In this document: piece after piece, positions 3,274 to 30,577 of the stretch | Numbering within the stretch: the stretch's first letter is position 1 | Layout: the number at the start of each line of letters is the position of its first letter | IMG/VR virus record: IMGVR_UViG_3300028400_000005 | Coordinates: 1 to 64,000 of that record | Strand: one strand, 5' to 3' | Source of the DNA: a virus | DNA length: 64,000 bases | Made by a program: the position numbers and the translations under genes | The notes under the pieces: model-generated | Seen by the model: only the letters and a program-made list of their open reading frames with translations | The model's database searches: none | Told to the model about the DNA's origin: nothing

Positions 3274-4734
3274 TTACTTAAAGGGCTTCCAGGACGCCAG
3301 CGGCGAGACGAAGTTCTTGACGACGAAGTGGTGGTTGGGGATGGAGAGCTGCAGCGCGCCGTAGAGCAGCACCGCCCACGGGATCACGGCCTTGTTCGTG
3401 GGGTAGAGGGGGAACTGCGTGGCGGGCAGCAGCTGGATCCACGAGATGGACTCGGGATCGCGGTTGAGGAGGTAGAGCTTGGAGCTCCCGGGGATGTCCT
3501 CGTTCTTGTCCTCGAAGACCGTGTCGGCCGTGCGGTCCGCGTTCGCGGGGATGCGCTTGACCAGGCGGTACTCGCCGAGGTCGGGGGCCGAGGCCGGGTC
3601 CTGGGTGCTGCGGTAGATCGCGTAGCCGGTCTGCTTGCGGTCGGCGTTGGGGGTGATGGTGAGGGTGATGCTGCCGTCGGCGGCCACCGCACCCGAGACC
3701 GCGGTGCTGGGGATGCCCTCGACGCCGCGCTCGTCAATCGCGGCCACGACGTAGTAGTAGGTGCCCGCCTTGGCGGCATCGAAGCGGGAGCCGGCGCCGA
3801 CGTTGGCGGTGGCGCTGACGGTCGGCGCGCCCGGGGCGTCGTCGGGGACCCGGCCGTACTTGGCGAAGGCCGGCTTGGCGTTCTCGGGGCCCTCGATCCA
3901 GATGTCCTGCTCGGTGAAGACGTTGCCGTAGCTGGTGCGGATCGCCGTCACCGGAGCGCCCAGCTGGAGCGAGGCGGGGTTGTTGTCCAGGTTGACGCGG
4001 TAGGCGGGGTCGAGGTAGCGGTCCAGCGCCGCCTGGGTGATGGGGTCCATGTAGACGTGGGTCAGCTTCCCGAAGTTGCCCTCGCCCAGGACCTCCGCGA
4101 ACGAGGCGTAGATGGTGTCCACGATCGCGCCCACGTCGCTCGAGCCCTGTGCGTCCTTGATGTGCGAGCCACCGCGCCAGCCGCGCAGGATCGCCTCGAT
4201 GCCGTCGAACTGCATCGGGGCCACCGAGGCGTCGCCGTGGTACATGGACCAGTTGGCCGCGCGCGAGAGACGCAGGAGAGCGTTGGTGTTCTCGCGCGCC
4301 TTCAGGGGCACGATGGTCTTCTGCACCGAGGCGACGTGGGAGACCTGCGCCTGGGTCATGAGGTACTTCACGAAGGTGATCTGGCGCTCGTACTCGCCGA
4401 CCTCAGCACCGATGTCCCCGGTCTCGGAGTTGAAGGCGCCGCCAGGCTGGCCGCCGATGCTGGTCTGGACGGTGTACTCATGCACCGAGCTGCCGACCGG
4501 CTGGCGCTTCAGGGCCCGGAAGAGCTTGAAGCTCTCCTCCTTTTCGATCACCTTCTTGAGCGTGGTCTCGAGGCTTTCCACGCGCAGCCCGCCCACGCCG
4601 GTGAGCTGGCTGTGGTCCGTCTCGTAGGTCGAGGTCTGGATCGCCTTGGCGAACGCGTTCCAGTCCTCGAAAGTCTCGATGCCTCCGGCGGGGATGCCCG
4701 CGCCGCTGATGACTCCTTCTCCCAGTCCGTGCAT
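3274..4734 (-). CDS. Major capsid protein with inserted Ig/FN3-like domain
   Basis: Protein of 486 residues, the putative shell subunit. Order and size fit an HK97-fold capsid gene: prohead protease, scaffold-like gene, then this one, followed by a terminator and connector genes. The first 300 residues show long helices and the EYTVQTSIGG..FNSETGDIGAEVGEYERQ region typical of large phage capsid proteins. Residues about 310-415 form an inserted beta-sandwich resembling a fibronectin-III/Ig-like decoration domain (PGAPTVSATANVGAG, GTYYYVVAAIDERGVEG, TGYAIYRST). The C-terminal 70 residues return to the capsid core. The start is ATG 4734 with a GGAGGAAA ribosome site. Confidence 0.85.
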   Translation of the reverse strand: MHGLGEGVISGAGIPAGGIETFEDWNAFAKAIQTSTYETDHSQLTGVGGLRVESLETTLKKVIEKEESFKLFRALKRQPVGSSVHEYTVQTSIGGQPGGAFNSETGDIGAEVGEYERQITFVKYLMTQAQVSHVASVQKTIVPLKARENTNALLRLSRAANWSMYHGDASVAPMQFDGIEAILRGWRGGSHIKDAQGSSDVGAIVDTIYASFAEVLGEGNFGKLTHVYMDPITQAALDRYLDPAYRVNLDNNPASLQLGAPVTAIRTSYGNVFTEQDIWIEGPENAKPAFAKYGRVPDDAPGAPTVSATANVGAGSRFDAAKAGTYYYVVAAIDERGVEGIPSTAVSGAVAADGSITLTITPNADRKQTGYAIYRSTQDPASAPDLGEYRLVKRIPANADRTADTVFEDKNEDIPGSSKLYLLNRDPESISWIQLLPATQFPLYPTNKAVIPWAVLLYGALQLSIPNHHFVVKNFVSPLASWKPFK

Positions 4735-4753
4735 TCGTTTCCTCCTCTTTGAC

Positions 4754-5464
4754 TTACTTCAGTTCGAGCTTGGCGCGCTCTTCGGCGGTCAGGCTGGACA
4801 GCATGCCTTCGGCGTCACCGCTGTGGTAGTAGTGTTCGACCTGGGCCATCCGCACCGGGTCGTCCACGACCTCAGCCGCCTTGGCGAAGATCTCTCGCAG
4901 GGAGTCCACCTGCTTGCGGGTGGGTACCGAGACGGTCTTCGACTTCGGGCGCCGGGGGGTCTCGTCGGTGAGGACCTGGTGCGCCTTGACCAGGACCCCC
5001 AGGCCGGCGTTCTGCTCGACGAGCGCCTTGACCAGGGTGGCGTTCTGGGCCTCGAGCTGCCGCACCCGCTCGGCCAGGGCGTCCAGCTTCGCCAGCTTGG
5101 CGTCAATCGCCTCCAGGAGCGGGGTGGCGTCTACGAAGCCGTCGGCCGCCTTGGCCATGGGCTCCTCGTCGCCGGTCGGGCCGGGGACCGGCACCGTGCC
5201 GTCCTCGCTTTCGCCCTTCGGGGCGTCGTCGTCCTGCTTCTCGCAGTCCTCTTCGCCCTCGGGGCAGTCGTCGTCGCCGTCCTTGTCGGGCCCGCCCTCG
5301 CCCACCTCGTCCTCGGTGGGTTCGGGATGGTCGAGGCCGGCGAAGTCCTCGTCGGGGTCTTCGCCGCCCTCGGCCGGGTCGAACTCCTGGGCCTTGGCCA
5401 GGAGTTCGGCGGCCCGCTCGAGCGCGGCTTCGCCTTCTTGGAGCATCTTTTCATGGTCGGCCAT
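4754..5464 (-). CDS. Scaffold-like acidic coiled-coil protein
   Basis: Protein of about 236 residues from ATG 5464 (GGAGG 5 nt upstream; a GTG two codons earlier is less likely). Residues 1-110 are strongly acidic and low-complexity (many Asp/Glu, with CPEGEEDCEK). Residues 110-150 form a heptad-like coiled coil (LLEAIDAKLAKLDALAERVRQLEAQ). The C-terminal 80 residues are helical and basic-acidic. Scaffolding proteins of phages with this gene order are acidic, helical and sit between protease and capsid, exactly as here. It would line the inside of the procapsid and then be cleaved by the neighbouring protease. The role is inferred from context and composition. Confidence 0.7.
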   Translation of the reverse strand: MADHEKMLQEGEAALERAAELLAKAQEFDPAEGGEDPDEDFAGLDHPEPTEDEVGEGGPDKDGDDDCPEGEEDCEKQDDDAPKGESEDGTVPVPGPTGDEEPMAKAADGFVDATPLLEAIDAKLAKLDALAERVRQLEAQNATLVKALVEQNAGLGVLVKAHQVLTDETPRRPKSKTVSVPTRKQVDSLREIFAKAAEVVDDPVRMAQVEHYYHSGDAEGMLSSLTAEERAKLELK

Positions 5465-5492
5465 GTGCACCTCCGTCGTTTTTCACGCCCGC

Positions 5493-5514
5493 ACCCTAGC
5501 GGCGTTTGCCGTCA
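5493..5514 (-). promoter_or_regulatory. Class B-like element at the protease stop codon
   Basis: The TAG stop of the protease gene is part of TAGGGT preceded by ACGGC, matching the late-promoter pattern. The next gene starts 28 nt downstream with a normal GGAGG site, so here a short leader would be present. Could be chance because half of it is coding. Confidence 0.35.
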
Positions 5515-6422
5515 GGCTGCATGCGGGTCGCTTCCAAAAGCAGGCGCTCGGTGTAAGCGCGCGCGGTCTCCGGGTCACAGCCCAGCTTCTGGAACGCCTG
5601 GGCGATCGCGGCGCGCCGCGGCGGCAGCTTGCGGCGCAGGATCGCGCGCAAGACCGTCCGGCTGGCGCGGTCGTACGCGGGCACGACCTTGCGGGGGTTG
5701 CGGTCCAGGCTCTCGGGCGTGAGCGCCTGCACGCCCTCCTTCGCGGCGCTGTCGGTGACGGGCACTCCGACCGTCAGCGCCTTGGCGAAGGTGCCCAGGT
5801 CCATGACCGTGACGCCGGCGCGTTCGCCCTCGGCGGGCTCGAGCTGCACGGCCTTGGCCAGGGGGCCGATCGGCTCGGTGGACACCGGGGGCAGCTCCGG
5901 GTGCTGCGCCCGCTGGGCGAAGCCCACGGAGAACCACTCAACCTGCGTGATGCGGCGGACCTCCCGCCCCTTGACGGTTACGCGCTTGGCCGCCTTGATC
6001 TGCCCGAAGACCGAGGGGTACCAGCGCTGCGGCGGGTCCATCTGGGTGATGGAGTGCCAGAACCAGTTGGCCCAGTCGCCCGAGCTCCCGGGGGGCGGCG
6101 GGGTCTTGTTGGAGAAGATCTCGCCCTTGACGAAGATCGAGCGCCCCTGGCGCTTGACCTCGAGGGGAAGGCCGATGACGTACTCCGGGCGCGCGCCGGT
6201 CCCGATGGGGTTCCCGAGCCAGGACCAATGATTGAGGTCCAGGTTCCCCTGCTCGAGGAAGAGCTTGCGCGAGCCCCAGAGCGCGTCGGCCGCCACGATG
6301 TCGCCCTCGCGGTCCACCACGCCGTCGCGGGAGGCCTCGAAGTACACCAGGCGCCGCCCCCCGACGTCGGCCGCCTTGGCCACGTACGGGAGGTGCACGA
6401 TGATCGCTGCGTCGTAGTCCAC
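5496..6422 (-). CDS. Prohead maturation protease
   Basis: Protein of 308 residues, expected to cleave scaffold and capsid during head maturation. The N-terminal 180 residues have the herpesvirus-assemblin-like (U35/S78) pattern: VDREGDIV near residue 37, NLDLNHWSW near 60 carrying the catalytic histidine, then GRSIFVKGEIFSNK near 95 and EWFSVGFA near 165, where a serine is expected. The C-terminal 100 residues are helical and may bind scaffold. The start codon is GTG at 6422, 6 nt after a TAGGGT -10 element, so translation is probably leaderless. It heads the leftward protease-scaffold-capsid operon. Confidence 0.85.
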   Translation of the reverse strand: MDYDAAIIVHLPYVAKAADVGGRRLVYFEASRDGVVDREGDIVAADALWGSRKLFLEQGNLDLNHWSWLGNPIGTGARPEYVIGLPLEVKRQGRSIFVKGEIFSNKTPPPPGSSGDWANWFWHSITQMDPPQRWYPSVFGQIKAAKRVTVKGREVRRITQVEWFSVGFAQRAQHPELPPVSTEPIGPLAKAVQLEPAEGERAGVTVMDLGTFAKALTVGVPVTDSAAKEGVQALTPESLDRNPRKVVPAYDRASRTVLRAILRRKLPPRRAAIAQAFQKLGCDPETARAYTERLLLEATRMQPDGKRR

Positions 6423-6526: not shown

Positions 6527-7141
6527 CTACGTCCGGGCGGGCTCCACCATCAGCTCGGGGGGCATCCGGTTGGGGGCGCGGACCCCGGACCAATGTGCGT
6601 AGCCAAACTCCTCCCAGATGCGCCCGAAGTGGCCCTCGCCGAAGTCCTGGACGCTGTAGCCGCAGATCACCGAGCGCTCGCCCACCGAGCACGGCACCTC
6701 CACCCCGGACTTGATCGAGAGGGCGTCGCGGTTGTCGTCCATGAAGACCCGCGCCAGCCAGAGGGGCACCTCGCCGGCGCGCTCGTGGATCTCCTTGGGC
6801 ACCGTCGCCGAAAGCACGCCGTACACGGTGAAGGGGTCCATCCCGTCAAGGGCCTGGTCGAGCGTGTCGCCCTTGCCGGCGAACTTGACGATGATCCGGC
6901 CACCGCTCGCCTTGAACTCGAGCTGCGCCGTCGCGACGTACCAGCGCTCGGTCGCCTCATCCGCGACGCCCCGGTCCCACGGGCCCCGCGTGTACAGGGC
7001 AGCCTGCACGCTGTCCAGCTTCAGCGGGAAGTCGTGCCGCGCCATGGCCGCGACCACGCGGCGGGTCCCCTCCATCTGGAGCGGGGTCTTCAGCACCACC
7101 ACGTCCTGCCGCTTCTCCCACATGCCGTTTTCGACCTTCAT
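6527..7141 (-). CDS. Protein of unknown function
   Basis: Protein of 204 residues with mixed alpha/beta composition. No family was recognised; it has no signal peptide, membrane segment or nucleotide-binding loop. It overlaps the stop of the receiver-like gene by ATGA (7138-7141), so the two are translationally coupled, and both are read from the class A promoter at 7470-7504 and end at the terminator at 6480. The pairing suggests they act together. Being under a putative repressor operator, the pair is more likely an accessory or conflict function than a head protein. Confidence 0.75.
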   Translation of the reverse strand: MKVENGMWEKRQDVVVLKTPLQMEGTRRVVAAMARHDFPLKLDSVQAALYTRGPWDRGVADEATERWYVATAQLEFKASGGRIIVKFAGKGDTLDQALDGMDPFTVYGVLSATVPKEIHERAGEVPLWLARVFMDDNRDALSIKSGVEVPCSVGERSVICGYSVQDFGEGHFGRIWEEFGYAHWSGVRAPNRMPPELMVEPART

Positions 7142-7452
7142 ACCTCTCCCCCTTTCACCCAGCGCTGCAACCGCTCGGCGGCGCGCTCGATGTTGCTTCG
7201 CCCCACGGGGTTCGCGGAGTGGCTTACGATCCGGGGCAGCTCGCGCAGGTCATGGGCGACCACGTAGCGCTCGAGCCAGTTGATGAAGTCGTAGCCGGTC
7301 TCCCCTTCCCCGAGGTCGTGGTCGAGGCTGATCTCCTCTACCCCCTCGAGGCCGTGGCCCTCCACCCACGCCCGGAGCTCCGCGGCGGTACGGAACAACC
7401 GGTATCCCGGGGGTGGTGTGCGCAGGTCATCGAGGAACAGCCGTAGACTCAT
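7138..7452 (-). CDS. Cyclic-phosphate processing receiver-like (cREC_REC) protein
   Basis: Protein of about 104 residues from ATG 7452 (GGGAGA upstream; a longer open frame to 7518 would start inside the promoter and is rejected). The sequence follows a stand-alone receiver-like family: LFLDDLRTPPPGY at residues 4-16, ISLDHDLGEGETGYDFINWLE at about 41-61, and IVSHSANPVGRSNIERA near the end. The LDD and LDHDLG acidic pairs are the conserved putative metal-binding residues. The family has been proposed to process cyclic phosphates; no reaction is assigned here. It is the first gene of a two-gene unit with the unknown protein at 6527-7141. Confidence 0.8.
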   Translation of the reverse strand: MSLRLFLDDLRTPPPGYRLFRTAAELRAWVEGHGLEGVEEISLDHDLGEGETGYDFINWLERYVVAHDLRELPRIVSHSANPVGRSNIERAAERLQRWVKGGEV

Positions 7453-7469
7453 CGTGTCTCCCTTCTGCG

Positions 7470-7504
7470 CGTCCATTATACCGGACAGACGGGAAATCAT
7501 GCAA
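7470..7504 (-). promoter_or_regulatory. Class A promoter/operator
   Basis: -35 TTGCAT (7504-7499), 18-nt spacer, -10 TATAAT (7480-7475), with the -10 inside CGTCC-N8-GGACA (7470-7487). The leader to ATG 7452 is about 15 nt and carries a ribosome site. Confidence 0.8.
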
Positions 7505-8735: not shown

Positions 8736-8948
8736 TCACGAGAAGGCGTCGAAGCTCTTGGCGTAGCGGTAGGGGTCGTCGAGCGGCGTGTTGCTCGACA
8801 CGTACGAGACACCGAAGCCCTTGGTGACCGGGTACTTCTTGAGCAGGCGGCTGCGCACCGTCTTGCGGTCGCCGTTGACGGGCACCACGGCCACCTTGGA
8901 ACCGTCCGAGGCCCGGGTCACCACGTAGTAGTCGTAGCTCTTGCTCAT
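8736..8948 (-). CDS. Small protein of unknown function under repressor-type promoter
   Basis: Protein of 70 residues, mostly polar, with MSKSYDYYVVTRASDG at the start and no membrane segment or known motif. It is a single-gene transcription unit: a class A promoter lies immediately upstream and the integrase terminator lies downstream. It starts with ATG at 8948, with a purine-rich GAGAGAGGGGG leader. Isolated small genes controlled like this are often anti-host, anti-phage or excision-control proteins. Adjacency to integrase makes an excisionase-like role possible, but no HTH was seen. Confidence 0.7.
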   Translation of the reverse strand: MSKSYDYYVVTRASDGSKVAVVPVNGDRKTVRSRLLKKYPVTKGFGVSYVSSNTPLDDPYRYAKSFDAFS

Positions 8949-8967
8949 CTCGTACCCCCTCTCTGCA

Positions 8968-9001
8968 TGTCCAGTATACCAGACACCGGCCCCGTCCGCA
9001 A
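8968..9001 (-). promoter_or_regulatory. Class A promoter/operator
   Basis: -35 TTGCGG (9001-8996), 17-nt spacer, -10 TATACT (8978-8973). The -10 is inside TGTCC-N8-AGACA (8968-8985), one mismatch from a perfect palindrome. Confidence 0.8.
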
Positions 9002-9004
9002 GCG

Positions 9005-9805
9005 TCAGTTCTGCAGCTTGTGGGCGGGGAACTCGAGCCCGTACTTCTTGACCCGCGGCGGGGCCTTGGGGAAGTCGGGGCCGATCTTGCCGCCGTTGGC
9101 GTGGAGGTGGTCGCTGACCTGCTTCATGTACGCCACGCCCTCACGCTTGACGGCCTCGCGCTCGTGCGCGGGCACCAGCTTCCGCAGGTTGTCGTCCTTG
9201 TAGAAGTTGTCGTGGGCGTGGTCGGCCCAGACGTTCTGCCAGGGGTGCCGCAGCTGCACCTCGAGCCGCTGCCCCTTGTGCCCGATGCCGTTGAAGTGCA
9301 CCGAGCGGTAGCCGTCGCGCGAGCCGTCGTGCACCTCGTGCTCCAGCACCTTGAGGTGGGGGTGGGGGTTGTCCATCAGGCTCTTGAGGCGGCGGTGGGC
9401 CTCCTCGAAGTGGGCCGGGTCGTGCACGGTCACGCGCAGGCCCACGGTATCGCCCAGGCGGTTGAAGTGGCGCGGCTGCTTGCCCGGGCGCCCCATCTTC
9501 TCCGCGACCTTGTACGGCTCCTTGATGCGGCCGCCGATCTGCACGTTCAGCCCCTGCAGCACCTTTTCCAGGTGCGCCTTGGCGCGGTCGTGGGCCTCTT
9601 CGGCGATCGGATGCAGGTGCTCGGAGATGTGCTGCTGGACTTCCGGCGCGGTGTGCGGCACCCAGCGGCGCCCGCTGGGGGTCTTCACCCGCACCATCAT
9701 CCGGCCGCTGGGAAGCACGCGCATGGCGCTCGCGCCCTGGGCCTTGGCGAGGAGCGAGAGGGCCAGCTCGACGAGCGAAAAGGAAGACGCTAGGGTGCGA
9801 TCCAT
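9005..9805 (-). CDS. RelA/SpoT-fold nucleotidyltransferase (putative alarmone synthetase or toxSAS-like)
   Basis: Protein of 266 residues. Residues 91-205 carry the synthetase signature. GGRIKEPYKVAEKMGR (91-106) matches the R-x-K..S/Y..K ATP-binding motif. LGDTVGLRV (117-125) carries the catalytic Asp119. DGYRSVHF (164-171) is the guanosine-stacking Tyr motif, and LEVQLRHPWQNVWADHAH (181-198) carries the metal-ligand Glu182 and the H..YK end motif. There is no hydrolase, TGS or ACT domain, so it is a small stand-alone form. The first 60 residues hold a beta-hairpin GRMMVRVKTPSGRRWVPH also common in polyvalent phage proteins. It is the last gene after the giant helicases, with its own class B promoter and a 14-bp hairpin around the start codon. 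It could make (p)ppGpp or (p)ppApp, or modify tRNA, during infection; the substrate is unknown. Confidence 0.8.
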   Translation of the reverse strand: MDRTLASSFSLVELALSLLAKAQGASAMRVLPSGRMMVRVKTPSGRRWVPHTAPEVQQHISEHLHPIAEEAHDRAKAHLEKVLQGLNVQIGGRIKEPYKVAEKMGRPGKQPRHFNRLGDTVGLRVTVHDPAHFEEAHRRLKSLMDNPHPHLKVLEHEVHDGSRDGYRSVHFNGIGHKGQRLEVQLRHPWQNVWADHAHDNFYKDDNLRKLVPAHEREAVKREGVAYMKQVSDHLHANGGKIGPDFPKAPPRVKKYGLEFPAHKLQN

Positions 9806-9833
9806 GGCCGCACCCTAGCGTCGGGGACGGTGG
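9786..9833 (-). promoter_or_regulatory. Class B promoter with 14-bp inverted repeat around the start codon
   Basis: The minus strand reads ACCGTC-N8-TAGGGT (9817-9812) then 6 nt to ATG 9805. The box is half of a perfect inverted repeat: GACGCTAGGGTGCG (9786-9799) inside the coding start and its complement at 9809-9822, with the start codon in the 9-nt loop. Any transcript beginning upstream (read-through) would hide the start codon in this hairpin, whereas a leaderless transcript would not. Confidence 0.6.
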
Positions 9834-9837
9834 GTCG

Positions 9838-10203
9838 TTACGCTCCGACGGCGTTGGCCGGCCCCATGTCGGGGTCGTAGAGCACGTAACCCTCGCCGGA
9901 CGGCCAGTAGCTGTGCCCCTGGTAACGCTCGCCCCAGAGCGTCTTCTGCTCGGCGTGGTGCAGCGCGGCCAGGAAGAGCGACCACTCGTCGGGGTAGAGC
10001 TGTTCGAGCCGGGCCACGGTCTCCGGCTCGTCGTGGGGGTGGGGGAGATGCACCGACGGCAGCGTCTCCGCGTCCGTTTCCCGGCGCAGCCAGCGCTTCA
10101 GCGGCCACCAGTACATGCCGTAGGCCTTGTAGCTGCCAGGATCCCGCTGGAGCAGCTGCACCACCCCGCTCAGGGCTTCACGGTCCACCTTGCGCTTGCT
10201 CAT
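9838..10203 (-). CDS. Protein of unknown function
   Basis: Protein of 121 residues, overlapping the giant methyltransferase-helicase stop by 4 nt (ATGA at 10200-10203), hence translationally coupled to it. It is rich in Trp, Tyr and His (YGMYWWPLKRWL, GHSYWPSGEGYVLYDPDMG). No catalytic motif was recognised. Coupling suggests it may be packaged or act with the 2340-residue protein. Confidence 0.7.
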   Translation of the reverse strand: MSKRKVDREALSGVVQLLQRDPGSYKAYGMYWWPLKRWLRRETDAETLPSVHLPHPHDEPETVARLEQLYPDEWSLFLAALHHAEQKTLWGERYQGHSYWPSGEGYVLYDPDMGPANAVGA

Positions 10204-13200
10204 CGCGTCCTCCCCGTCATTTTATGGTAAAGCTCCACGAGCGAGGCCTTCACCAGGTACTCGGCCTGCTCGGGGCGCGGTATCGCGCGCCAATGCCGCT
10301 TGCCCAGCACCCGCTCGGCGTAGAAGGGCAGCGCACCGAGGGCGTCGTAGCCCAGGTCGCGCTCGCCGTGGTGTTTCCGCCACAGCTCGATGTCCTCGGG
10401 GGTGTTGGTGAGCAGCCGCTCGCCCTCTTCAAGCGGGATGCCGGGCTTGGCGTACGAGGCGGTGCGGTGCTCGGGGACGCCCTCGCGGTTGACGACCCAG
10501 GCCCCGATGCCGCCCCGGTCCTGCTTGGCCCACTCCTTGAGCGCTTCCTGGATCCGGTCGTGGTGCCGGCGCACCACGTCGGGGTGCACCTTCTGCAAGC
10601 CGGTGACGCCCACGTGCCGCAGCCGCTGCGCCAGCTCCTGCCCCAGGGTTTCGTCGTCCACCCGCGGGCGCGCGAAGATGTTGCCCAGCTCGGCCACGTC
10701 CTCGATCTTGTAGCTCGAGGGCTTGGGCTCGGAGCCGTAGCGCTGCAGCGGCACCAGCGGGGCGATCTGCATCGTCTTGGTGACGGGGCTGACCGAGAGG
10801 ATGCGGAAGTGCCGCACGCCGCCGTCCTTGGTGTGCTGCTCGATGTGGCCGCCCTCCACGAAGACCTGGCCCGACGGGGCGATCACGAAGGGACGGCCCT
10901 CGCGGATCGCGTCCAGCTGGTCCTTGCTCACCTGCTCGTTGCGCTCGAGGTCGGACATGCGCGCCCGCCACTCGCCCTCGAGGCGCTTGAGCTTGCGGCT
11001 GCGCTCCTCCAGGCGCCGGTTCCACACGGCCACCTTCTCGGGGCTCCCCTCGGCGTGCGCCTTCTCCAGGTTGGCCTGCGCCTGAGCGACCAGGCCGCGC
11101 TGCTTCTGGACGGAGTGGTGCAGGATGCTCGCCTGCTGCAGCTTCTGGACGGTGGCCTGCCACGCGGCGGCCTTGGCCTCCTCGAGGCGCTTTTTCTTCT
11201 GCTTCTCCAGGATCGCCCGCACGTCGTCGGGGTTGTCGGCCGTCTGCATGAGCATCTGGGTGTAGGGGTCGTTCTCCGGGTCCATGGCGTCGGCGTTGCG
11301 GGCGCGCTCCTCGGTGCTGTTCCACAGGATGTCGGTCCAGCCCTTCTTACCGAGCATGGTGCCGTAGGTCATGGCGTCCACGGAGCCGCGCGCCAGCAGC
11401 ACGTGGTTGCGCACCTTCTCCTGGGTGTTGCCCTGCCGTACGGCGCGGCCCAGGCGCTGCCAGTAGGTGCCCGGGTCCCAGGGGATGTCCAGGTGCACCA
11501 TGTCGGTCGTGCCCGTCTGCAGGTTGAACCCCTCGCCGATGACCCCGGTGGAGCCGATGACCACGCGGATCTTGCCGGCCTTGTAGGCGGCCTCGATGTC
11601 GGCGCGGGCGGCCGAGCTCTTGGCCGTCTTCGAGGTGACGACGGCGATCTGGTCTTCGGGCACGCCCGCCTCGATGAGGTGCTGCTTAAGCCGGGCGTAG
11701 GCGTTGGTGCGGCTCTCCTCGAGGTGCTTGGCGACCAGCTTCCGCAGCTTGGCGGTGGTCATGCCCTCATGGGGGAGCTTGTTGCGCTTGGCGTACTCGC
11801 GCAGGGCGTCCTCGCCCATGTCCTCGGCGGGGTTCTCGTCCATGGACGACTGCCCCAGGTCCATGAACATGACCACCTTCCCGCCCTCGCTGAGCGCCTG
11901 TTTGGCGATCTCGCCCGCCTTCTGGAAGCGCGGGTTGGGCAGGTGCCCCAGGCGCTCGGGGTCGTAGACCGCGGGGTCGAGGGTGAGGAAACGCATGCGC
12001 GCCAGGTAGGAGAAGAAGTGCTCGTCGCCTTCGGCTTCGCGGTTGGCCGCGGCGTGCTGGGCGGCGGCGGCCAGGGCGCGGTACTCCGTGTGCTGCTCGG
12101 GGTGCATCTCGAAGATGTGCTCGTGGTCCTCGCGCTCGGGGATCTTGAGACCCACCTCCTGCGCGGTGCGCCGGAAGATGTAGCGGTTCATCAGTCCCCG
12201 AAGCTCCCCCAGGTTCTTGAACCCGAGGACGGCGGTCCGCACCTCCACGCCGCCGGGCGTGGCCACCAGGGCATTGCCGATGTCCGTGTAGCGGCTGATG
12301 AACGCCTCCGGGGTGGGCGCGATGCGGTCTACGGCGTCGGTGACGTAGCGCAGCATGTTGTAGACCTCGAGCGGCGAGTTTTTGGTCGGGGTGGCCGTGA
12401 GGGCGTAGATCCCGCTGCCGTCGTTGTGGTCGCGCACGTGCCGCGCCTTGATCAGCATGTCGAGCGCGCGCTGCGACTCCGAGCCGGCCCCCAAAAACTT
12501 CGGCGACTCGCCGAAGACCCGCGGCGCCGCATGCAGGTTCTTGTAGGCGTGGTGCTCGTCCGAGATGAGCGCGTCCACGCCCAGGTCCTCCCAATGCACC
12601 GCCCGCACCTGGTCGCCGAAGAGCTTGGCCGTGGCCTTCTCCATGGCCTGCTGCATCTTGCCCACCCAGTCGCGCTCGCTGCGCTTCTTGCGCTTGTCGT
12701 GCTGCGCCTCCTCGAACTCGCGGGCGCGCACCACGTCGTCCTTGACGTAGCGCTCGAGGGTTTCGGGCCGTACCGGGATGGCACCGAACTTGTCGCGGGT
12801 GATGAGCACGCGGGTGATGCTGGGGTCCGCGGCGAGGCGCGCGAGCTTGGTGGCCACGTCCTTCATTTTGTCCTCGCGCCAGACCTTCTTCTTGGGATCA
12901 AAGGTCTCGCCGATGACCATCACGTGGTCCCCGGGGACGCCCCGGGCCACGTCCGCCCGGGACAGGGCGCGCAGCGCCGCGCGGAAGCGCTCGGGCTCGA
13001 GCCCGCTGGCCTTCTCGGCGTCGTTCAGGTTGATGAGGTCGCGCTCCTTGAGCAGATCGTAGACCTTCTGCGCGTCCGCGGCGGTCTGCTCGTCGGTGCC
13101 CTCGGGGACGGCGAACTCGCCCGTGATGTACCAGCGGCCGCTACCGAGCTCGGCGTAGCTGTTGCGCCAGTTGCCCATCAGGCTCTTGGGCATGACGTGC

Positions 13201-16200
13201 ATGACCCGCTTGGCCCGGCCTTCGTGCTCGAGGAGCTGGGCTAGCGCGAGGCCGGCGTACGTCTTCCCGAGACCCACGTCGAGGGCCATGATCGAGTTGC
13301 CGGTGTCGAGGGCGTGCCGCACCGCCTCCGTCTGGAAGTCATGCAGCGGCGGACCCTTCCAGTCGGGGATGTCCAGCGCCTCGTTGCTGTACTTGGGCGG
13401 GATGTAGCTGTTGTAGGTGCGGTTGTAGCCCTCTTCGAGCTCTTCGCGGTAGTCGGAGCTGGCCGCCCACGCCTTGAACTGGTCGGCCCACTCCTGCTCC
13501 TGCTTGCGGGCCTCCTCGCGGTACTGCGCCTTGAGCGCGTCCAGCTCGGCGCGGGTCATGGTCCTCGTCTGCTCGGCCGTGAGGCGCCGCACCGGGGTGT
13601 CGAAGTTGAGGTACTTGACGAACTCCTTGACGTGGTCGGGGAGACTGTAGCCCTCGGCGTGCTCCACGATGAAGATGCCGGTGTCCGTACGCCGCACATT
13701 GTACTGGCCGCCCGGGTCCACGACCTCGCCGATGAAGTCGCGCACCACCTCCGGGCGCACGTAGTGGTCGCGGGCCGTGATCTCGACCTCCTCGAGGGGC
13801 TTGCGGGGCAGCTTCTCGCGGAACTTCTTGGCCTGGGCCCGCAGGATCTCGCGTTCGGTGTTCGAGAGGCCCGGGGCCTCGGCGGCCCGCTCCAGCGCCT
13901 CGGAGCGCTCGTACACGTCCCCGACGTAGAACTCGTCGTCGGGAATCCAGCGCCCCGACTCGTCCATGGCGTAGCCGTTCTCGGCCAGCCACTCCATGGC
14001 CTGCGTGGTGCCCCAGCCTTTCCCCGCCAGCACCGAGGCCAAGCGGGTGGGGGTGAGGCGCCGCTGCCGCGCAAGGTGCGCCGCGACGGCGTAGGGGTCG
14101 GTGTAGTCCACCCCCTCGCCGCGCTCGCCCGTGACCGGGTTGAGCAGGTGCTCGGCCACGTCGCCCTTGGGCGTGACGGCGCTGAGCAGGTGGGCGAGGC
14201 TGTGCCGGCGTTTGAGCTCGCCGGCCAAGTGTTGGTGGGGGTTGCCGTACTCCTCCAGGTAGCGCTTCAGGGACTCGACCACCGCCTTACGGCGCGCCTC
14301 GGCGTCGGCCGGGCTGCCGTTGTTGAGCACGTGCACGTACTCGCGCAGCTCGTCGGCGATGCTGACCGCGGCCGCGAGGCGCGGGTCCTCGCCCTGGATC
14401 GTGTGCCAGCGCCCGTTGCGGAAGACCAGGCGGCCGTCCTCGCTGACCGTCCCCTCCTCGACGCGGCCGCGCTCGAGGTTCGAGGCCGCGCTCGTGGCCC
14501 AGTCGCGGGCCGATGCGTACTCGTCCCCGTAGTGGCGCTCCAGCGCCGCCATGTCCGCCGGCTGTTCGTCGGTGGGGGCCTGGGCCAGGCGCTCGAGCAG
14601 CCCGGGCTCGAGCTCGCCCTCGATCTTCTTGTAGCCGTGGTACGTGGTCTCGCCGCTCCACGTCCCGAAGAGGTGGTCGTCGCGCAGGTGCAGCTTGCCG
14701 TCCAGGAAGTCGCGCGCGGCGTCCGTGAGCACGCCCGCCTTCTCCAGGGCCTCCTCGCCGTGGCGCTGCACCAGGCGCAGGAGGGTCATCCCCTCATCGT
14801 CCGGGCGCTTGCGCACCACCAGCACCACCGGGGGCACCCCCGAGTTGGACTCCTTGAAGACGCTGGAGGGGAGCTGGTAGGCCCCCAGGACCTCCGCCCG
14901 GGCCAAGAGGCGCCGGCGGAAGTCGCGGGTCGAGGGGTTCTCGACGGGTCCCGGGTTGATCAGGTGCACGCCCACGCCGCCGTCCTTGAGGCGGTCCAGG
15001 GAGGCGTCAATGAAATACTGCTCGGCCTTGGCGAGCCACGGCTTGCCCTTGCCGATCAGGCTGCCGCGGATGCCGTAGGGCGGGTTGGCGATCACCGCGT
15101 CGTAGGTGTGCTCCTGCCCTTCGCCCTGGTTGTACTCCTCGAAGGACAGGCCGGGGTAGACCTTGTGCCCCCGGGGCTCGTGCAGCAGCTTGCCGATCTT
15201 GCCCGATACCTCGGAGAGCTCGACGCCGGTCACGCGGGTGCCGTCGGGGGCGGTGTGCAGGAAGACGCCGTTGCCCATCGAGGGCTCGAGCGCGGTCTTG
15301 GGCTGGCCGGCCACGCGGTGCAGCAGGGCCCACATGGCGGCCGCCAGCGGCGCCGGGGTGTAGTGGGCGTTCAGGTCGCCCGTCAGGCCGCCCTCGCCGG
15401 TGTAGGCGGCCAGGACCTGGCGCTCCTCCTCGGTGGGCTCGCGCTTCTCGTCTTCCAGGCGCTCCAGCAGCTCCACGGCGCGCGCGTTGGCCTTGGTGCG
15501 CTGGGCAACCGTGGCCTTGGGCAGCAGCGCGAACCCGAACCGGGGAATACGCTTCAGGATCTCGCGCAGGGGGCGCGCGTAGTTGAGTCCGCGGCCTTCG
15601 GCTTCGGCCTGGGGCGGCTCCTCGGCGGCCGGCTCGGCCTCGGCCTCGGGCTCGGTCTCGGTCGGCTTGGCCTCGGGTTCGGGCTCCGGCTCGGCCTGGG
15701 GTTCGGCCGCTCCGGCTTCCGCCTCGGGCGCGGTCGGCTTGGCCTCGGGTTCGGGCTCCGAGGTGGCCTGGGGCTCGGGTTCGGTTTCCTGCCGGGGCGC
15801 GCTCGGGGCGCTTTCGGGTTCCTCGTCCACGCGGTGCCAGCGCCCGCCCTTGAGGCGGTACGTGTGGGCCCCGTCGGCGAAGACGACCGTCTTCTCGGCA
15901 CCCTCCCGCAGGTGCTGATCGGAAGGGTCGGCCGGCAGCTCCGCGGGGGCCGGTCCCGCGGTGTCGGGCACCGACGGCTCCACCTGCGGCGCGTTCTTGC
16001 CCTCCCAGCGCTCGCGCGGCACTTCATGGTAGAAGTGGTCGGTCAGGTTCTGGGCGAAGACCCGGGCGAACTGGGGGTCGCGTCCCCGCAGCTCGTAGCC
16101 GCGGATCGGGTCGTGCGTCGCCGTCTCCTCCAGCTCGAGGGCGCCGTCGGGAGCCACCTTGTACACCAGCTCGCCGTCGAGGTAGATGTCGCTCATTGGG

Positions 16201-17222
16201 TCGTCGGGGTCGGCGTGGCGGTAGTGGGTGAGGTACAGCCGCGGCGCGCCGTCCCGCCCCGGGTGGCGCTCGATGACCAGCGGCAGGAAGGGCGGGTTGG
16301 GGATGCGCAGGTGGTAGTCGCCGTCCTCGTCCCCCTCGCGCAGGACGTGCTCACGCAGGCCGGCCCGCTCCAGGAACTCCGCCACCGCCTTGGCGTCGGC
16401 GCTCTTCTGGCGGTCGGCGGGGGCGACGGCCGGCCCCGCGTCCTGTTCGGGCTCGGCCGGCTTGGGCGGCTCCAGCTCCCCGCGGCTGGCCAGGCGGGCC
16501 GCGGCCTCGACCTTCTTGGCGAGGGCGCCCGCCGTCTTGATCAGGTTCTCCGAGCCGTGGTCCACCCGTCCCCCGGCGTCGTAGGCGAAGCTGCTCGCGG
16601 CGTACAGGTCCTTCATCGCCGCCTGCAGCTTCACCAGCATGCGCTGCAGGCGCGACAACGGGTCGTTCCCGCGGGGCAGCTTGCGCGGGCGCAGCTTCTT
16701 GCGCTCCCACTTGGGGGCCGCGTTGGAGTCGAAAACGCGCTCCACCTCGCGCTCGAGCTCGTCCAGGGCGGCCTCGGGATCGCGGCGCAGGGTCGCTTCC
16801 CAGTCGTCCGGCGCCGGCCGCTCTTCGGGTTTGGCCTCGGGTTTGGCCTCGGTCTCGGTCGGCTTGGCCTCGGCCTCGGGCTTGGGGGCGGCGGCCTGCG
16901 GCTTCGGCTTCTGCGCGGCCTCCGCCTCGCCGTCCGCCTTCTCCCAGTACGTCTGCGTGTGAACCTTGCCGCTCTTCTCGCGCACCACCTTTTTGACCGG
17001 CTTGAGGTGCGCCTTGTCGTGCCGGCGGTCGAAGAGCGACGGCTGCTCGGGCTGGCGGCCCTGCCCGTCGAAGAGTGCGGGCTGGTCGGGGGGCGGCGCC
17101 TTGCGCCGGCGCGTCCCCGCAGAGCGCCGCGTGCGGCGCGCGGACCGGCTGGGGGCTGGAGGGAGGTTGAAGAGGGCCTGGGCCTGGGCTTTGATGAGGT
17201 CGTAAATCTCGCGTAGGGTCAT
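10200..17222 (-). CDS. Giant DarB-like polyvalent protein: adenine methyltransferase plus SNF2 helicase
   Basis: Protein of 2340 residues. An N-terminal disordered region of Ala/Glu/Pro/Lys repeats carries two sliding-clamp-type motifs, QPALF (47-51) and QPSLF (60-64). An N6-adenine methyltransferase domain follows at about 600-780, with SMGNGVFLHT as the SAM-binding loop and ANPPYG near 713. A superfamily-2 helicase spans about 1300-1950: Walker A DVGLGKT near 1315, DEHH box near 1555, and RLGRAVRQG motif VI near 1920. The 350-residue C-terminus is helical. The arrangement resembles P1 DarB, an internal head protein injected with DNA to block restriction, and large polyvalent proteins of phages and plasmids. 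It is co-transcribed with the helicase gene at 17485-22722. Confidence 0.85.
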   Translation of the reverse strand: MTLREIYDLIKAQAQALFNLPPAPSRSARRTRRSAGTRRRKAPPPDQPALFDGQGRQPEQPSLFDRRHDKAHLKPVKKVVREKSGKVHTQTYWEKADGEAEAAQKPKPQAAAPKPEAEAKPTETEAKPEAKPEERPAPDDWEATLRRDPEAALDELEREVERVFDSNAAPKWERKKLRPRKLPRGNDPLSRLQRMLVKLQAAMKDLYAASSFAYDAGGRVDHGSENLIKTAGALAKKVEAAARLASRGELEPPKPAEPEQDAGPAVAPADRQKSADAKAVAEFLERAGLREHVLREGDEDGDYHLRIPNPPFLPLVIERHPGRDGAPRLYLTHYRHADPDDPMSDIYLDGELVYKVAPDGALELEETATHDPIRGYELRGRDPQFARVFAQNLTDHFYHEVPRERWEGKNAPQVEPSVPDTAGPAPAELPADPSDQHLREGAEKTVVFADGAHTYRLKGGRWHRVDEEPESAPSAPRQETEPEPQATSEPEPEAKPTAPEAEAGAAEPQAEPEPEPEAKPTETEPEAEAEPAAEEPPQAEAEGRGLNYARPLREILKRIPRFGFALLPKATVAQRTKANARAVELLERLEDEKREPTEEERQVLAAYTGEGGLTGDLNAHYTPAPLAAAMWALLHRVAGQPKTALEPSMGNGVFLHTAPDGTRVTGVELSEVSGKIGKLLHEPRGHKVYPGLSFEEYNQGEGQEHTYDAVIANPPYGIRGSLIGKGKPWLAKAEQYFIDASLDRLKDGGVGVHLINPGPVENPSTRDFRRRLLARAEVLGAYQLPSSVFKESNSGVPPVVLVVRKRPDDEGMTLLRLVQRHGEEALEKAGVLTDAARDFLDGKLHLRDDHLFGTWSGETTYHGYKKIEGELEPGLLERLAQAPTDEQPADMAALERHYGDEYASARDWATSAASNLERGRVEEGTVSEDGRLVFRNGRWHTIQGEDPRLAAAVSIADELREYVHVLNNGSPADAEARRKAVVESLKRYLEEYGNPHQHLAGELKRRHSLAHLLSAVTPKGDVAEHLLNPVTGERGEGVDYTDPYAVAAHLARQRRLTPTRLASVLAGKGWGTTQAMEWLAENGYAMDESGRWIPDDEFYVGDVYERSEALERAAEAPGLSNTEREILRAQAKKFREKLPRKPLEEVEITARDHYVRPEVVRDFIGEVVDPGGQYNVRRTDTGIFIVEHAEGYSLPDHVKEFVKYLNFDTPVRRLTAEQTRTMTRAELDALKAQYREEARKQEQEWADQFKAWAASSDYREELEEGYNRTYNSYIPPKYSNEALDIPDWKGPPLHDFQTEAVRHALDTGNSIMALDVGLGKTYAGLALAQLLEHEGRAKRVMHVMPKSLMGNWRNSYAELGSGRWYITGEFAVPEGTDEQTAADAQKVYDLLKERDLINLNDAEKASGLEPERFRAALRALSRADVARGVPGDHVMVIGETFDPKKKVWREDKMKDVATKLARLAADPSITRVLITRDKFGAIPVRPETLERYVKDDVVRAREFEEAQHDKRKKRSERDWVGKMQQAMEKATAKLFGDQVRAVHWEDLGVDALISDEHHAYKNLHAAPRVFGESPKFLGAGSESQRALDMLIKARHVRDHNDGSGIYALTATPTKNSPLEVYNMLRYVTDAVDRIAPTPEAFISRYTDIGNALVATPGGVEVRTAVLGFKNLGELRGLMNRYIFRRTAQEVGLKIPEREDHEHIFEMHPEQHTEYRALAAAAQHAAANREAEGDEHFFSYLARMRFLTLDPAVYDPERLGHLPNPRFQKAGEIAKQALSEGGKVVMFMDLGQSSMDENPAEDMGEDALREYAKRNKLPHEGMTTAKLRKLVAKHLEESRTNAYARLKQHLIEAGVPEDQIAVVTSKTAKSSAARADIEAAYKAGKIRVVIGSTGVIGEGFNLQTGTTDMVHLDIPWDPGTYWQRLGRAVRQGNTQEKVRNHVLLARGSVDAMTYGTMLGKKGWTDILWNSTEERARNADAMDPENDPYTQMLMQTADNPDDVRAILEKQKKKRLEEAKAAAWQATVQKLQQASILHHSVQKQRGLVAQAQANLEKAHAEGSPEKVAVWNRRLEERSRKLKRLEGEWRARMSDLERNEQVSKDQLDAIREGRPFVIAPSGQVFVEGGHIEQHTKDGGVRHFRILSVSPVTKTMQIAPLVPLQRYGSEPKPSSYKIEDVAELGNIFARPRVDDETLGQELAQRLRHVGVTGLQKVHPDVVRRHHDRIQEALKEWAKQDRGGIGAWVVNREGVPEHRTASYAKPGIPLEEGERLLTNTPEDIELWRKHHGERDLGYDALGALPFYAERVLGKRHWRAIPRPEQAEYLVKASLVELYHKMTGRTR

Positions 17223-23560: not shown

Positions 23561-23926
23561 TCACGCCAGCGGCCGCCTCGGATCGCGCCCCCCGGCCGAT
23601 TCGGCCAGCGCCTCCGCCATCATCCCGGCGGTTTTCAGCAGCATCGAGGCGAACCGCAGCGCCTTAACCCGCGTCTCATCGCACGGGTCGTCACCCCCGA
23701 GCTCGTCCGCGGCGTCCAAGAACGCTGCGGAGGCGCGCGTGTAGGCTTCGGCCGCCCCGCGCATGAAGATCTCCAGCGTGCCAAGGTGGTCGCCCAGAAC
23801 AACGCCGGCGGGCACGAGCTCAGCGGCCACGTCCACCAGCTTCTCGGCGACCTCCTGCTCCATGCCACCGTGCTTGAGAATGTTGACGAGCGACGCCTTG
23901 CTTGCGCTCCCCTGTTCGGTCGTCAC
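23561..23926 (-). CDS. Small helical protein, unknown
   Basis: Protein of 121 residues, all-helical pattern (EVAEKLVDVAAELVPAGVVLGDHLG, TRVKALRFASMLLKTAGMMAEALAE). Its ATG overlaps the stop of the Gp37/Gp68-like gene by 4 nt. No family recognised; operon position links it with the radical-SAM-type neighbour. Confidence 0.65.
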   Translation of the reverse strand: MTTEQGSASKASLVNILKHGGMEQEVAEKLVDVAAELVPAGVVLGDHLGTLEIFMRGAAEAYTRASAAFLDAADELGGDDPCDETRVKALRFASMLLKTAGMMAEALAESAGGRDPRRPLA

Positions 23927-28136: not shown

Positions 28137-28487
28137 TCATGCGAGCATGCCCCGGCAACGGCGTCTCAGGCACCGCGCCAGCGACCGCAGCACCGACTCC
28201 CGGTCGCGCTGGCGGTTGGTCTTGCAGATACGCCCGTCGCGGGCCTCGGCCTCGCCGTAGTAGCCGAGCTCCGTGTCGTAGCGCACGAAGTGACGGCGGG
28301 AAAGCGCGCGCACCTCCGCCTCGTGCGGGTTGGTGCCGATCCGGGCGTCGGCGAAATCCTGCGCCAGCTCGCGCAGCTCCTCATGCGTTCCCCGGGCGCG
28401 GTAGGTCCAACCCTGTTCCGTGGACCACAGCACCAGGGTCGCGTCGTTCCGAGGGCCCGTAATGGCCCACCCGATCGCCAGACCCAT
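28137..28487 (-). CDS. Small protein of unknown function
   Basis: Protein of 116 residues from ATG 28487, sharing the A of the previous TGA. The N-terminal half has an RNase-H-like look (GLAIGWAITGPRNDATLVLW). The C-terminus is very basic (RSLARCLRRRCRG). No catalytic set was confirmed. It is coupled to the gene at 28487-28912. Confidence 0.6.
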   Translation of the reverse strand: MGLAIGWAITGPRNDATLVLWSTEQGWTYRARGTHEELRELAQDFADARIGTNPHEAEVRALSRRHFVRYDTELGYYGEAEARDGRICKTNRQRDRESVLRSLARCLRRRCRGMLA

Positions 28488-28912: not shown

Positions 28913-28926
28913 GGCAACCTCCCACG

Positions 28927-28961
28927 TGTCCAGTTTATCGGACACGCGAGAAAGCTGTCAA
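28927..28961 (-). promoter_or_regulatory. Class A promoter/operator of the accessory operon
   Basis: -35 TTGACA (28961-28956), 18-nt spacer, -10 TAAACT (28937-28932). The perfect palindrome TGTCC-N8-GGACA (28927-28944), extended to GTGTCC/GGACAC, covers the -10. It is the best operator copy. Confidence 0.85.
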
Positions 28962-28979
28962 GCTGTACACCCTGTCTGT

Positions 28980-30002
28980 CTACTTGCTGGCCGCGGCGAT
29001 CAGCGCCTGCAGCTTCTCCTCGAAGTCGGGGTCCGCCTCAGCGCCGCGGTCGGTCGGGGTGCCGGCGTGCGTGACCAGGATCCAGCGGCAACGGCAATGC
29101 GGGTGCAGCGGGATGGCCGCGTGTTCGACGGGGTCGCGGCGGCCGATCGGGTTCTTGCCCACCCATACGTCGAGCTTGGGGTCGCCCGGGCCTGGGTGCA
29201 CCACCGTGAACCGCCGACCATGCAGCGCCCGGCACTTGTCGCAGGCGTCCCGGGCGGCGCTCCACTCCACCAGAGCCCCCTCGGGCAGGGCGGCGATGAA
29301 GCCGGCCGAGCGGTTGCGCGCCGTCTCGGTGAGGGCGACGCGCCGCCAGTCCCGGTTGAGGACTCCGAAGCGGTCGGCAAGTGCCCGGGCCAGGTCTATG
29401 GGCTGGCGCCGGTCCTCCTCCCACGCGTAGATCGTCTGCAGGATGGCGTGCCGAGTCTGGTCGTCCAGGAAGCGCACGTGCTCGGCAGCGCGCGCCCGCG
29501 CGAACTCGATGCGCGCCGCGTGGCGCTCGCCCAGCAACCCCGTGTAGCGCTCGAGCATCACCTCGGGCCGCACTCGCAGGGCGTAACCGCCCTGCACCAA
29601 CCCGACGATGTAGCTCGCCACGGCGCGCTGCTGCGCGCGTGTCTCGAGCTTGCCCCGCCCGTACCACTCCTCGGTGATCACGCGTACGAGGTCCCGGTAA
29701 GCCTCCGGGGGCACGTCCCCGGGGGCGTAGCCGGCCAGGCGCTCCTGGAAGAGGCGCTGCGCGCGCTCAAGGGCGCGCCGGCGCGCCTCGGCCTGGCTCG
29801 CCTTGGCCAGGGTCTCGACGTGGTACGTGGACCGGATGAGGTCGGCCGGCAGGCTGGGCAGCCCGAGCACCCGGTGCAGGTCGCGGTGGACATGGTACAG
29901 GTACGTGGTCCCCAAAGCGGTCATGGACCGCTCGAGGGCTGCCACCAGCGGGTCGGGGTCCGGGCTCCAAACGTCGCGCTCGGAGGCGGCCGCGGGCCTC
30001 AT
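28980..30002 (-). CDS. SPP1 gp7 / Mu F family head morphogenesis protein
   Basis: Protein of 340 residues. The C-terminal half has the MuF-domain landmarks: ALTETARNRSAGF near 225, EWSAARDACDKCRALHGRRF near 245-262, and HAAIPLHPHCRCRW near 295. The paired cysteines and the HPHCRC box are the family hallmark. The family sits next to portal genes and is a minor head protein incorporated during procapsid assembly, sometimes ejected with DNA. Its ATG overlaps the InPase-like gene stop by 4 nt; portal, InPase and this gene form one operon. Confidence 0.88.
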   Translation of the reverse strand: MRPAAASERDVWSPDPDPLVAALERSMTALGTTYLYHVHRDLHRVLGLPSLPADLIRSTYHVETLAKASQAEARRRALERAQRLFQERLAGYAPGDVPPEAYRDLVRVITEEWYGRGKLETRAQQRAVASYIVGLVQGGYALRVRPEVMLERYTGLLGERHAARIEFARARAAEHVRFLDDQTRHAILQTIYAWEEDRRQPIDLARALADRFGVLNRDWRRVALTETARNRSAGFIAALPEGALVEWSAARDACDKCRALHGRRFTVVHPGPGDPKLDVWVGKNPIGRRDPVEHAAIPLHPHCRCRWILVTHAGTPTDRGAEADPDFEEKLQALIAAASK

Positions 30003-30577
30003 GCCTCTCCCCCATCGGGCACCCGCACCAGGCGGCCCTTGCGGGCGATCTCGACCAGCGTGCGCAGCTCCCGGCTCCGTGCCTCCGGCAGCGGCTCGCC
30101 CATGACGACGCGCCCTCGGAGCCTCCCCTCACGCGCCAGTCGGACGAAGGTCTCGGCGGGGATGCGGGTCATCCCCCCGTAGTAGCTCCGGGGGATGTGG
30201 GCGAGGTAGGCGGCCTTTGCCTCCCGTGCCGATCGGAACCCCAGCATTACCTTGTCCTCGTCGTGCTCCCCGGTGTCGGGCCGGACCTGGTGCACCACGT
30301 AGACGTAGCGCGCGTTCTCGTAGGGGCCTACGTACACGTCGAGGTGATCCGGCCGCTTCTTGCCCGGCTCGCGGTCCACGCCTTCCGTGCCGCGGATGTA
30401 GCCGTAGTCGTAGCGCATGAGGGTCTTGCCCTCACGCCCGTTTTCGTCGCGCCACGGGCGGTACTGCCCCTTCTTGGCCTCGATGCTGATCTCCAGCCCG
30501 CGCCAGCGGCGCCGGCCGGCGAGTGGGTACCCCGTCGCGTGCGCCTTGGCGAGACGCACCACCAGACGCGGCATCAT
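29999..30577 (-). CDS. Inorganic-pyrophosphatase-like (InPase) phage protein
   Basis: Protein of 192 residues. The core TLMRYDYGYIRGTEGVDRE, followed by PDHLDVYVGPYENARYVYVVHQ and DEDKVMLGFRSAREAKAAYLAH, matches the soluble-pyrophosphatase-like domain often found in polyvalent phage head proteins. The acidic residues of RPDHLDVYVGP and HDEDKVM are in the right places for metal binding. It is unusual as a stand-alone gene between portal and MuF. It may clear pyrophosphate or act on a nucleotide after injection. The gene overlaps both neighbours by 4 nt. Confidence 0.75.
   Translation of the reverse strand: MMPRLVVRLAKAHATGYPLAGRRRWRGLEISIEAKKGQYRPWRDENGREGKTLMRYDYGYIRGTEGVDREPGKKRPDHLDVYVGPYENARYVYVVHQVRPDTGEHDEDKVMLGFRSAREAKAAYLAHIPRSYYGGMTRIPAETFVRLAREGRLRGRVVMGEPLPEARSRELRTLVEIARKGRLVRVPDGGEA

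Follow-up and report, generated by a model that had tools for sequence, protein, structure and literature searches.

A stand-alone RelA/SpoT-fold synthetase gene of a Lalka-type phage with a late promoter inside a start-codon hairpin and a predicted head-packaging tag

A phage gene at positions 9005..9805 (minus strand, ATG start) encodes a 266-residue RelA/SpoT-fold synthetase that stands alone and is a predicted head-packaged effector. The window analysed here comprises 64,000 nucleotides of a 79,030-bp contig. By a narrow balance of probability, we favour a reading of the gene product as a late-made, head-packaged and injected pyrophosphotransferase. The enzyme would be produced only late in infection, from a late, leaderless promoter. 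On read-through mRNA from the neighbouring DarB and Ulx genes, a hairpin would mask the start codon or end transcription; this hairpin would be absent from late mRNA. Residues 1-22 would target the protein to the capsid as a propeptide that the head protease removes by cleavage after LLAKA-22; the enzyme would enter the head along with other internal proteins, DarB and Ulx among them, and reach the next host by injection. Its activity there would be to move pyrophosphate from ATP onto a 3'-OH, in the simplest case that of a purine nucleotide (yielding an alarmone), possibly that of tRNA; from what is known of the family, host transcription or translation would be damped at the start of infection. 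The observation that led us to this gene, made in a sequence-only reading, is confirmed by the ORF, the Pfam domain, the motifs and a syntenic copy; the interpretation then offered is partly supported.

Judged by its proteins, the contig is that of a Lalka-type, Thermus-phage-related myovirus: capsid protein, terminase, portal, sheath, DarB, helicase and others share about 45-72% identity with those of Thermus phage Lalka27a. The Lalka phages have been described as a group of myoviruses with lysogeny genes (PMC11437467). By contig identity, the kin of the bin are Myxococcota, yet the phage contig is related to Thermus phages, so that it may be mis-binned. Directly upstream of the RelA gene lie a Ulx-like gene (9838..10203, minus strand; phrog_1629, E=3.4e-9; 44% identical to Lalka27a Ulx) and, as already recognized from the sequence, a gene for a DarB-like giant protein of 2340 aa (10200..17222, minus strand). 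A tblastn search found no RelA gene in Lalka, and Ulx was rejected as a cognate partner of the enzyme, since Lalka has the Ulx-DarB pair without the enzyme gene.

The sole close relative found is IMG/VR contig UViG_3300026531_000001 (hereafter L001), which has in common with our contig the gene order DarB-Ulx-RelA-p70-recombinase-protease-scaffold-MCP. The RelA ORF can be taken as a real gene because its syntenic copy in L001 is 87% identical in amino acids and 83% in nucleotides, with a dN of 0.080 and a dS of 0.755 (dN/dS about 0.1). With a dN of 0.066 in the catalytic core against 0.111-0.117 at the ends, these substitutions indicate that the gene is under purifying selection, strongest in the core, on conservation evidence that is thin in that it comprises two close sequences only.

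The RelA_SpoT synthetase domain (Pfam PF04607) covers residues 92-205 (9191..9532, minus strand), with E=8.2e-15 and 55.5 bits against a curated cut-off of 27. No further Pfam family was matched in the 266-aa protein and no HD hydrolase domain was found in it, which agrees with its initial description as a protein without hydrolase; an HD_4 search of the bin found no partner on the contig, its sole match lying on another contig. All catalytic residues (R-x-K, D of LGD, Y of GYRSVH, E/Q of EVQLR) are kept, and R93, K95, K103, D119, R124, G165, Y166, S168, H170, E182, Q184 and R186 are invariant in an alignment of 69 sequences. The sequence-only reading had held all key synthetase motifs to be intact. 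The motifs that it named are indeed present, Asp119 and Glu182 included, but two positions depart from the family: Lys99 replaces the Ser of the ATP motif R-x-K-x-x-x-S, which is Ser in 94% of relatives, and Pro111 replaces a Tyr found in 98% of relatives. The L001 copy has Lys and Pro at these same two positions. Replacement of Ser by Lys99 might weaken ATP binding.

An AlphaFold2 (AF2) model was built with 69 sequences and replaced an earlier 12-sequence model whose core was poor. It has a mean pLDDT of 78.6 and a pTM of 0.72, with low confidence at residues 1-17. VIA-align matches it to CapRel (Z 14.2 over 210 residues, rmsd 4.7), B. subtilis RelQ/YjbM (Z 14.0 over 168 residues, rmsd 3.3), RelP (Z 14.0) and Tas1 (Z 12.0), polymerase-beta folds outside the RSH group reaching Z about 8-9. 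On the domain match and the model, the protein thus has a RelA/SpoT synthetase fold with its catalytic residues intact. Like a single-domain RSH, it consists of a synthetase domain alone, without HD hydrolase or regulatory domains, and its fold matches RelQ and RelP at Z about 14. As RelQ, RelP, CapRel and Tas1 all match, sequence and fold do not assign an acceptor preference among guanine nucleotide, adenine nucleotide and tRNA, nor does the sequence distinguish ppGpp, ppApp and pyrophosphorylated tRNA as products. The model carries about 53 extra N-terminal residues, forming a helix (11-22) and then a beta-hairpin at residues 36-50 (9656..9700, minus strand; MMVRVKT-PSGRRWVPH region, AF2 strands 36-42 and 45-50) that is kept in L001 and has no counterpart in small alarmone synthetases.

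Searches of PHROGs and phage records gave no homology above chance for the N-terminus (1-66) or the C-terminus (204-266). Two candidate relatives were rejected. Family PDC-S33/phrog_4773 (candidate defence, about 360 aa) has the domain alone in common, the members inspected having a long C-terminal part and no N-terminal tag; the match in Enterobacter phage KKP_3711 is weak and in an unrelated context. Matches in human-gut phages are unannotated fragments and were left out.

The gene was initially credited with its own late promoter, and the sequence upstream bears this out. A TAGGGTG element at 9811..9817 (minus strand) has its first base 12 nt from the A of the ATG, predicting a leaderless mRNA. 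TAGGGTG-N5-ATG precedes many virion genes in this phage and in Lalka, and the genes so equipped include portal, protease, the scaffold operon, tail-module genes and recombinase. Most start codons lie exactly 12 nt from the first T of TAGGGTG, the portal start lying at 13 nt. The sequence TAGGGTGNNNNNRTG occurs 5 times in the window against 0.17 expected, 3 times in the remaining 15 kb of the contig against 0.01, and 6 times in 49 kb of Lalka27a against 0.10. TAGGGT ends at -7 when the A of ATG is counted as +1, a spacing that suggests -10 elements of leaderless mRNAs. Scanning for sigma-70 promoters gave no site close to the RelA gene, the late promoter being of another type. The presence of one motif before RelA and virion genes strongly indicates late transcription, and late-only expression of the RelA gene appears well supported. 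We found no mention of a group-wide TAGGGTG promoter with a fixed 12-nt distance in the passages of the Lalka description that were consulted.

The late promoter falls within an inverted repeat of 15 bp (9786..9822, minus strand) that reads, from 9822 to 9786, GACGCTAGGGTGCGG-CCATGGA-TCGCACCCTAGCGTC. Its 5' arm holds the promoter, its 7-nt loop the start codon, and its 3' arm falls within codons 2-7, an arrangement that no other TAGGGTG gene of the phage has. The predicted hairpin has a minimum free energy of -29.6 kcal/mol (z -6.55), the lowest among the 31 gene-start windows examined (the next being -22.7), and its L001 counterpart reaches -33.6 (z -7.62). The two hairpins differ by one compensatory change from A-U to G-C and one from G-C to G-U, and the 3' arm keeps a rare CTA Leu codon (1.3% of Leu codons). 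On a read-through DarB-Ulx transcript both arms would be present, and the start codon would be hidden or the transcript terminated; mRNA made late, with its 5' end at the ATG, would be without the 5' arm. The hairpin itself is directly visible; its action we infer from a precedent in T4, where a hairpin masks the translation start of I-TevI, soc, e and segB except on the late mRNAs, which are missing its 5' arm (PMC2988022). As in those T4 genes, the late promoter is sited so that late mRNA loses the 5' arm, with the difference that here a leaderless mRNA is predicted and the start codon itself is in the loop. The RelA gene had been regarded as co-expressed with the giant proteins, a view to be qualified by its own promoter and by a hairpin predicted to block its translation from DarB-Ulx read-through mRNA.

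The hairpin might instead be an operator, the remnant of a divergent pair of late promoters, or a plain terminator of the DarB-Ulx mRNA, with no translation switch involved, a possibility that we regard as doubtful but not slight and that concerns the hairpin only, being compatible with every other reading of the gene. The opposite strand also carries TAGGGTG with an ATG 13 nt on, though the frame has only 4 codons, and divergent late promoters precede the Lalka recombinase. The stem is followed by a TTCCTTTT tail. In L001, however, pairing is preserved even though the opposite strand has TAGAGTG and a weaker tail follows; moreover, a terminator at this place would have an identical insulating effect.

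Packaging is suggested by the N-terminus of the protein, where the sequence LLAKA-Q (residues 18-23) matches a [LIVMF]xKA motif. Scaffold, head protease and capsid protein also contain this motif, and DarB has it at its N-terminus. The head maturation protease homologue (5496..6422, minus strand; 62% identical to Lalka_59) is the source of the predicted cleavage specificity, and its position matches that of the Cumys 'head maturation protease' and the Dolphis/ST4 'capsid maturation protease'. It contains three [hydrophobic]AKA sites; the scaffold-position protein (4754..5470, minus strand) has three AKA sites, the first of which is LLAKAQ as in the RelA protein. A strict hydrophobic-[AS]-K-A pattern occurs 3 times in scaffold and 3 times in protease, with about 0.05 expected in each, and the respective counts are three and four in Lalka and three and three in Cumys. 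The major capsid protein (3274..4734, minus strand; phrog_752, 1.8e-75; 69% identical to Lalka MCP) contains NAFAKA-IQTSTYETD. In six related phages, the aligned MCP sites read FAKA-IQTSTYETD, FVKA-VQTSTYQTD, FAKA-VQTAGDP, LIKA-LEASNYQTD, LQKA-LQASNYQTD and LSKA-LQASNYQTD.

Over three phages, with RelA excluded, [LIVMF]xKA is found in the first 40 residues of 11/20 head-class genes and 7/124 others (p=3.6e-7, an optimistic value given the homology of the head-class proteins across these phages); the motif was noticed post hoc, and roughly 6-11% of other genes have a loose match by chance. When scored on a motif matrix, the RelA site falls below the core sites, and 7 of 17,647 other 8-mers score equally high. 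The site is kept in L001. The DarB-like protein of the window begins MTLREIYDLIKA-Q, and the first 14 residues of Lalka DarB end in LLAKA-E. Effectors of phages PHB04 and Dolphis, which were not used in deriving the pattern, provide a check: stand-alone PHB04 proteins begin MIILLTKA-Q (DarB-like), MKPILFLKA-S (helicase), VGAVVLLKA-D (InPase) and VIVFLKA-Q (HD_4 hydrolase), and the first 20 residues of the Dolphis ART protein gp117 end in LLIKA-Q.

Motifs repeated in their substrates are a feature of known prohead proteases such as gp245 of SPN3US, an enzyme that in addition removes short propeptides of 20 and 24 residues (PMC10052503). Thirty N-terminal residues of P1 DarB are enough to carry a reporter into the head, and P1 virions contain both Ulx and DarB (PMC9024508). 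We infer that the KA motif is a capsid-targeting and prohead-protease site. By this motif comparison, residues 1-22 of the RelA protein (9740..9805, minus strand), ending in LLAKA, are a predicted capsid-targeting propeptide; packaging of the protein and its processing after Ala22 are plausible, and we consider them somewhat more likely than not. The early suggestion that the enzyme may be carried in the virion thus gains some ground from an N-terminal LLAKA common to head proteins and presumed injected proteins. Not every packaged protein needs the tag, as Ulx, which in P1 belongs to the virion, has no KA motif. Beside the KA site, several putative injected proteins have near their N-terminus a motif like VxGYTRxDGTxVxPHxR, at loci 23719-24090 and 28290-29138 of the Dolphis extract and 316-894 and 3505-6399 of the PHB04 extract, and VKTPSGRRWVPHT of the RelA protein may be a variant of it.

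The same tag is carried by another enzyme of the phage, a stand-alone InPase (PF18823, E=5.2e-34) encoded between the portal and MuF genes (29999..30577, minus strand). It starts PRLVVRLAKA-HATGYPLAG after Met, and the copy in the relative is 84% identical with the tag kept. The InPase domain is regarded as likely virion-packaged by Iyer et al. (PMC5512222). That a pyrophosphate-transferring and a pyrophosphate-hydrolysing enzyme appear to share one tag in one phage is suggestive. Bordetella phage PHB04 (MF663786.1, 35166-35744; positions 316-894 of the extract used above) encodes, close to InPase and DarB-like genes, a small HD_4 protein annotated as ppGpp synthetase/hydrolase; it begins VIVFLKA-QVAGY and is a candidate injected alarmone or pyrophospho-tRNA hydrolase. 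More generally, and with confidence falling a little short of even, we propose that myoviruses of the Lalka, PHB04 and Dolphis types load free-standing enzymes into the capsid by one short N-terminal signal, made up of a hydrophobic stretch and a [LIVMF]xKA site at which the head protease cuts, and that enzymes handling pyrophosphorylated nucleotides are a recurrent class of this cargo. The cargo would comprise the alarmone synthetase here, the enzyme of HD_4 alarmone-hydrolase type in PHB04, and InPase in both. If this is true, phages would raise or erase host stress nucleotides from injection onward.

Downstream of the RelA gene lies a 70-aa ORF, p70 (8736..8948, minus strand; 65% identical in L001), which is a candidate partner or immunity protein by position only and has no Pfam match and no phage tblastn match. 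Upstream of it, a promoter-like TTGCGG-N17-TATACT (8973..9001, minus strand) is conserved in L001 and differs in class from the late promoter. A receiver-like cREC_REC gene (7138-7480, minus strand) and p70 (8736-8978, minus strand, in this comparison) have a common sigma-70-like promoter with similar flanks around GGTATAxTGGAC, which is perhaps of an early class.

Other accounts of the enzyme have to be set against delivery in the head. It could be a late non-virion enzyme acting in the producing cell, where it would raise alarmones or modify tRNA late and affect shut-off or lysis timing, LLAKA being a chance match. The late promoter class fits such an enzyme, and loose KA matches do occur in 7/124 non-head genes. 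We nevertheless hold this account unlikely: the extra 50-residue N-terminus, missing in small alarmone synthetases, speaks against it, LLAKA is kept in L001 and the same site is found on InPase and on presumed injected proteins of PHB04, and an enzyme that damps translation in the producing cell would be harmful to virion production.

A toxSAS-like toxin, with p70 as the antitoxin of a two-gene toxin-antitoxin or exclusion module, is quite improbable in our estimation. In both genomes p70 directly follows the RelA gene and has its own non-late promoter, it evolves faster (65% identity against 87% for the RelA protein), and CapRel is as good a structural match as RelQ. Still, p70 has no antitoxin domain recognised by Pfam and, by phage tblastn, no homologue elsewhere, and a late promoter on the toxin, with separate promoters for the two genes, would be unusual for a toxin-antitoxin operon. 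Least probable of all, with a very small share of our confidence, is a structural or binding head protein that keeps the fold with catalysis lost or altered. The replacements Ser to Lys99 and Tyr to Pro111 would fit this, as would the EH motif beside the last helix, which reads AH; but long RSH enzymes also have AH at that position, the remaining catalytic positions are invariant, and selection has been tighter on the core than on the ends.

Phage RelA/SpoT domains are known mainly within giant injected proteins or MuF toxins, and their virion delivery has rarely been tested. A small stand-alone enzyme with a defined tag, in a phage group with cultured members (Lalka, Cumys, Dolphis, PHB04), opens both delivery and activity to direct tests. 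Should the KA tag prove to be a genuine signal for capsid loading and processing, sequence alone would reveal what these phages inject; phage entry would also be tied to stress-nucleotide signalling in bacteria, related phages having synthetase or hydrolase versions. In the part of the literature searched, we found no published virion-packaged stand-alone alarmone synthetase; what appears new here is the promoter inside the 5' arm of a hairpin at the RelA gene, and the N-terminal LLAKA tag.

The closest parallels are found among phage polyvalent proteins, in which RelA/SpoT domains occur, as they also do fused to MuF (Iyer et al. 2017, PMC5512222). Matches among viral models include several proteins of ~1000-1300 residues, some of them DdrB-like or ART-PolyVal-like. 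The polyvalent proteins, for instance those with DdrB or ART domains, resemble our case in that a phage protein with this fold is predicted to enter the head and be injected, and our phage also has DarB-type proteins and InPase; here, however, the single catalytic domain has a small gene to itself, with a late promoter, a hairpin and an N-terminal tag of its own. The MuF-Apk2 (p)ppApp synthetase toxins of prophages (PMC12226406) likewise tie a RelA/SpoT-fold enzyme to the head module, whereas the RelA protein has no MuF domain, the MuF-like protein of the phage being a separate gene (28980-30002), and no Aph1-type hydrolase gene is near. The small alarmone synthetases RelQ/YjbM and RelP/YwaC are some of the nearest solved structures by fold (VIA Z 13.5-14.2 over 165-172 residues) but are only 17-22% identical, and the phage protein differs by its extra N-terminal tag and beta-hairpin, by Lys99 for Ser and by a very basic pI of 9.9. 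CapRel, a tRNA pyrophosphokinase and phage-sensing fused toxSAS (PMC9712102), is an equally good structural match (Z 14.2 over 210 residues); CapRel is a defence gene, in contrast to the late phage gene described here, in which no antitoxin domain was found. A similar genomic setting is that of gene 6 of the Nitrososphaera provirus Pro-Nvie1, a stand-alone RelA/SpoT gene (PF04607, 3e-20) that also lies in a head module, between portal and protease/MCP, although it belongs to an archaeal provirus, encodes 210 aa and is about 30% identical over 44% of the query.
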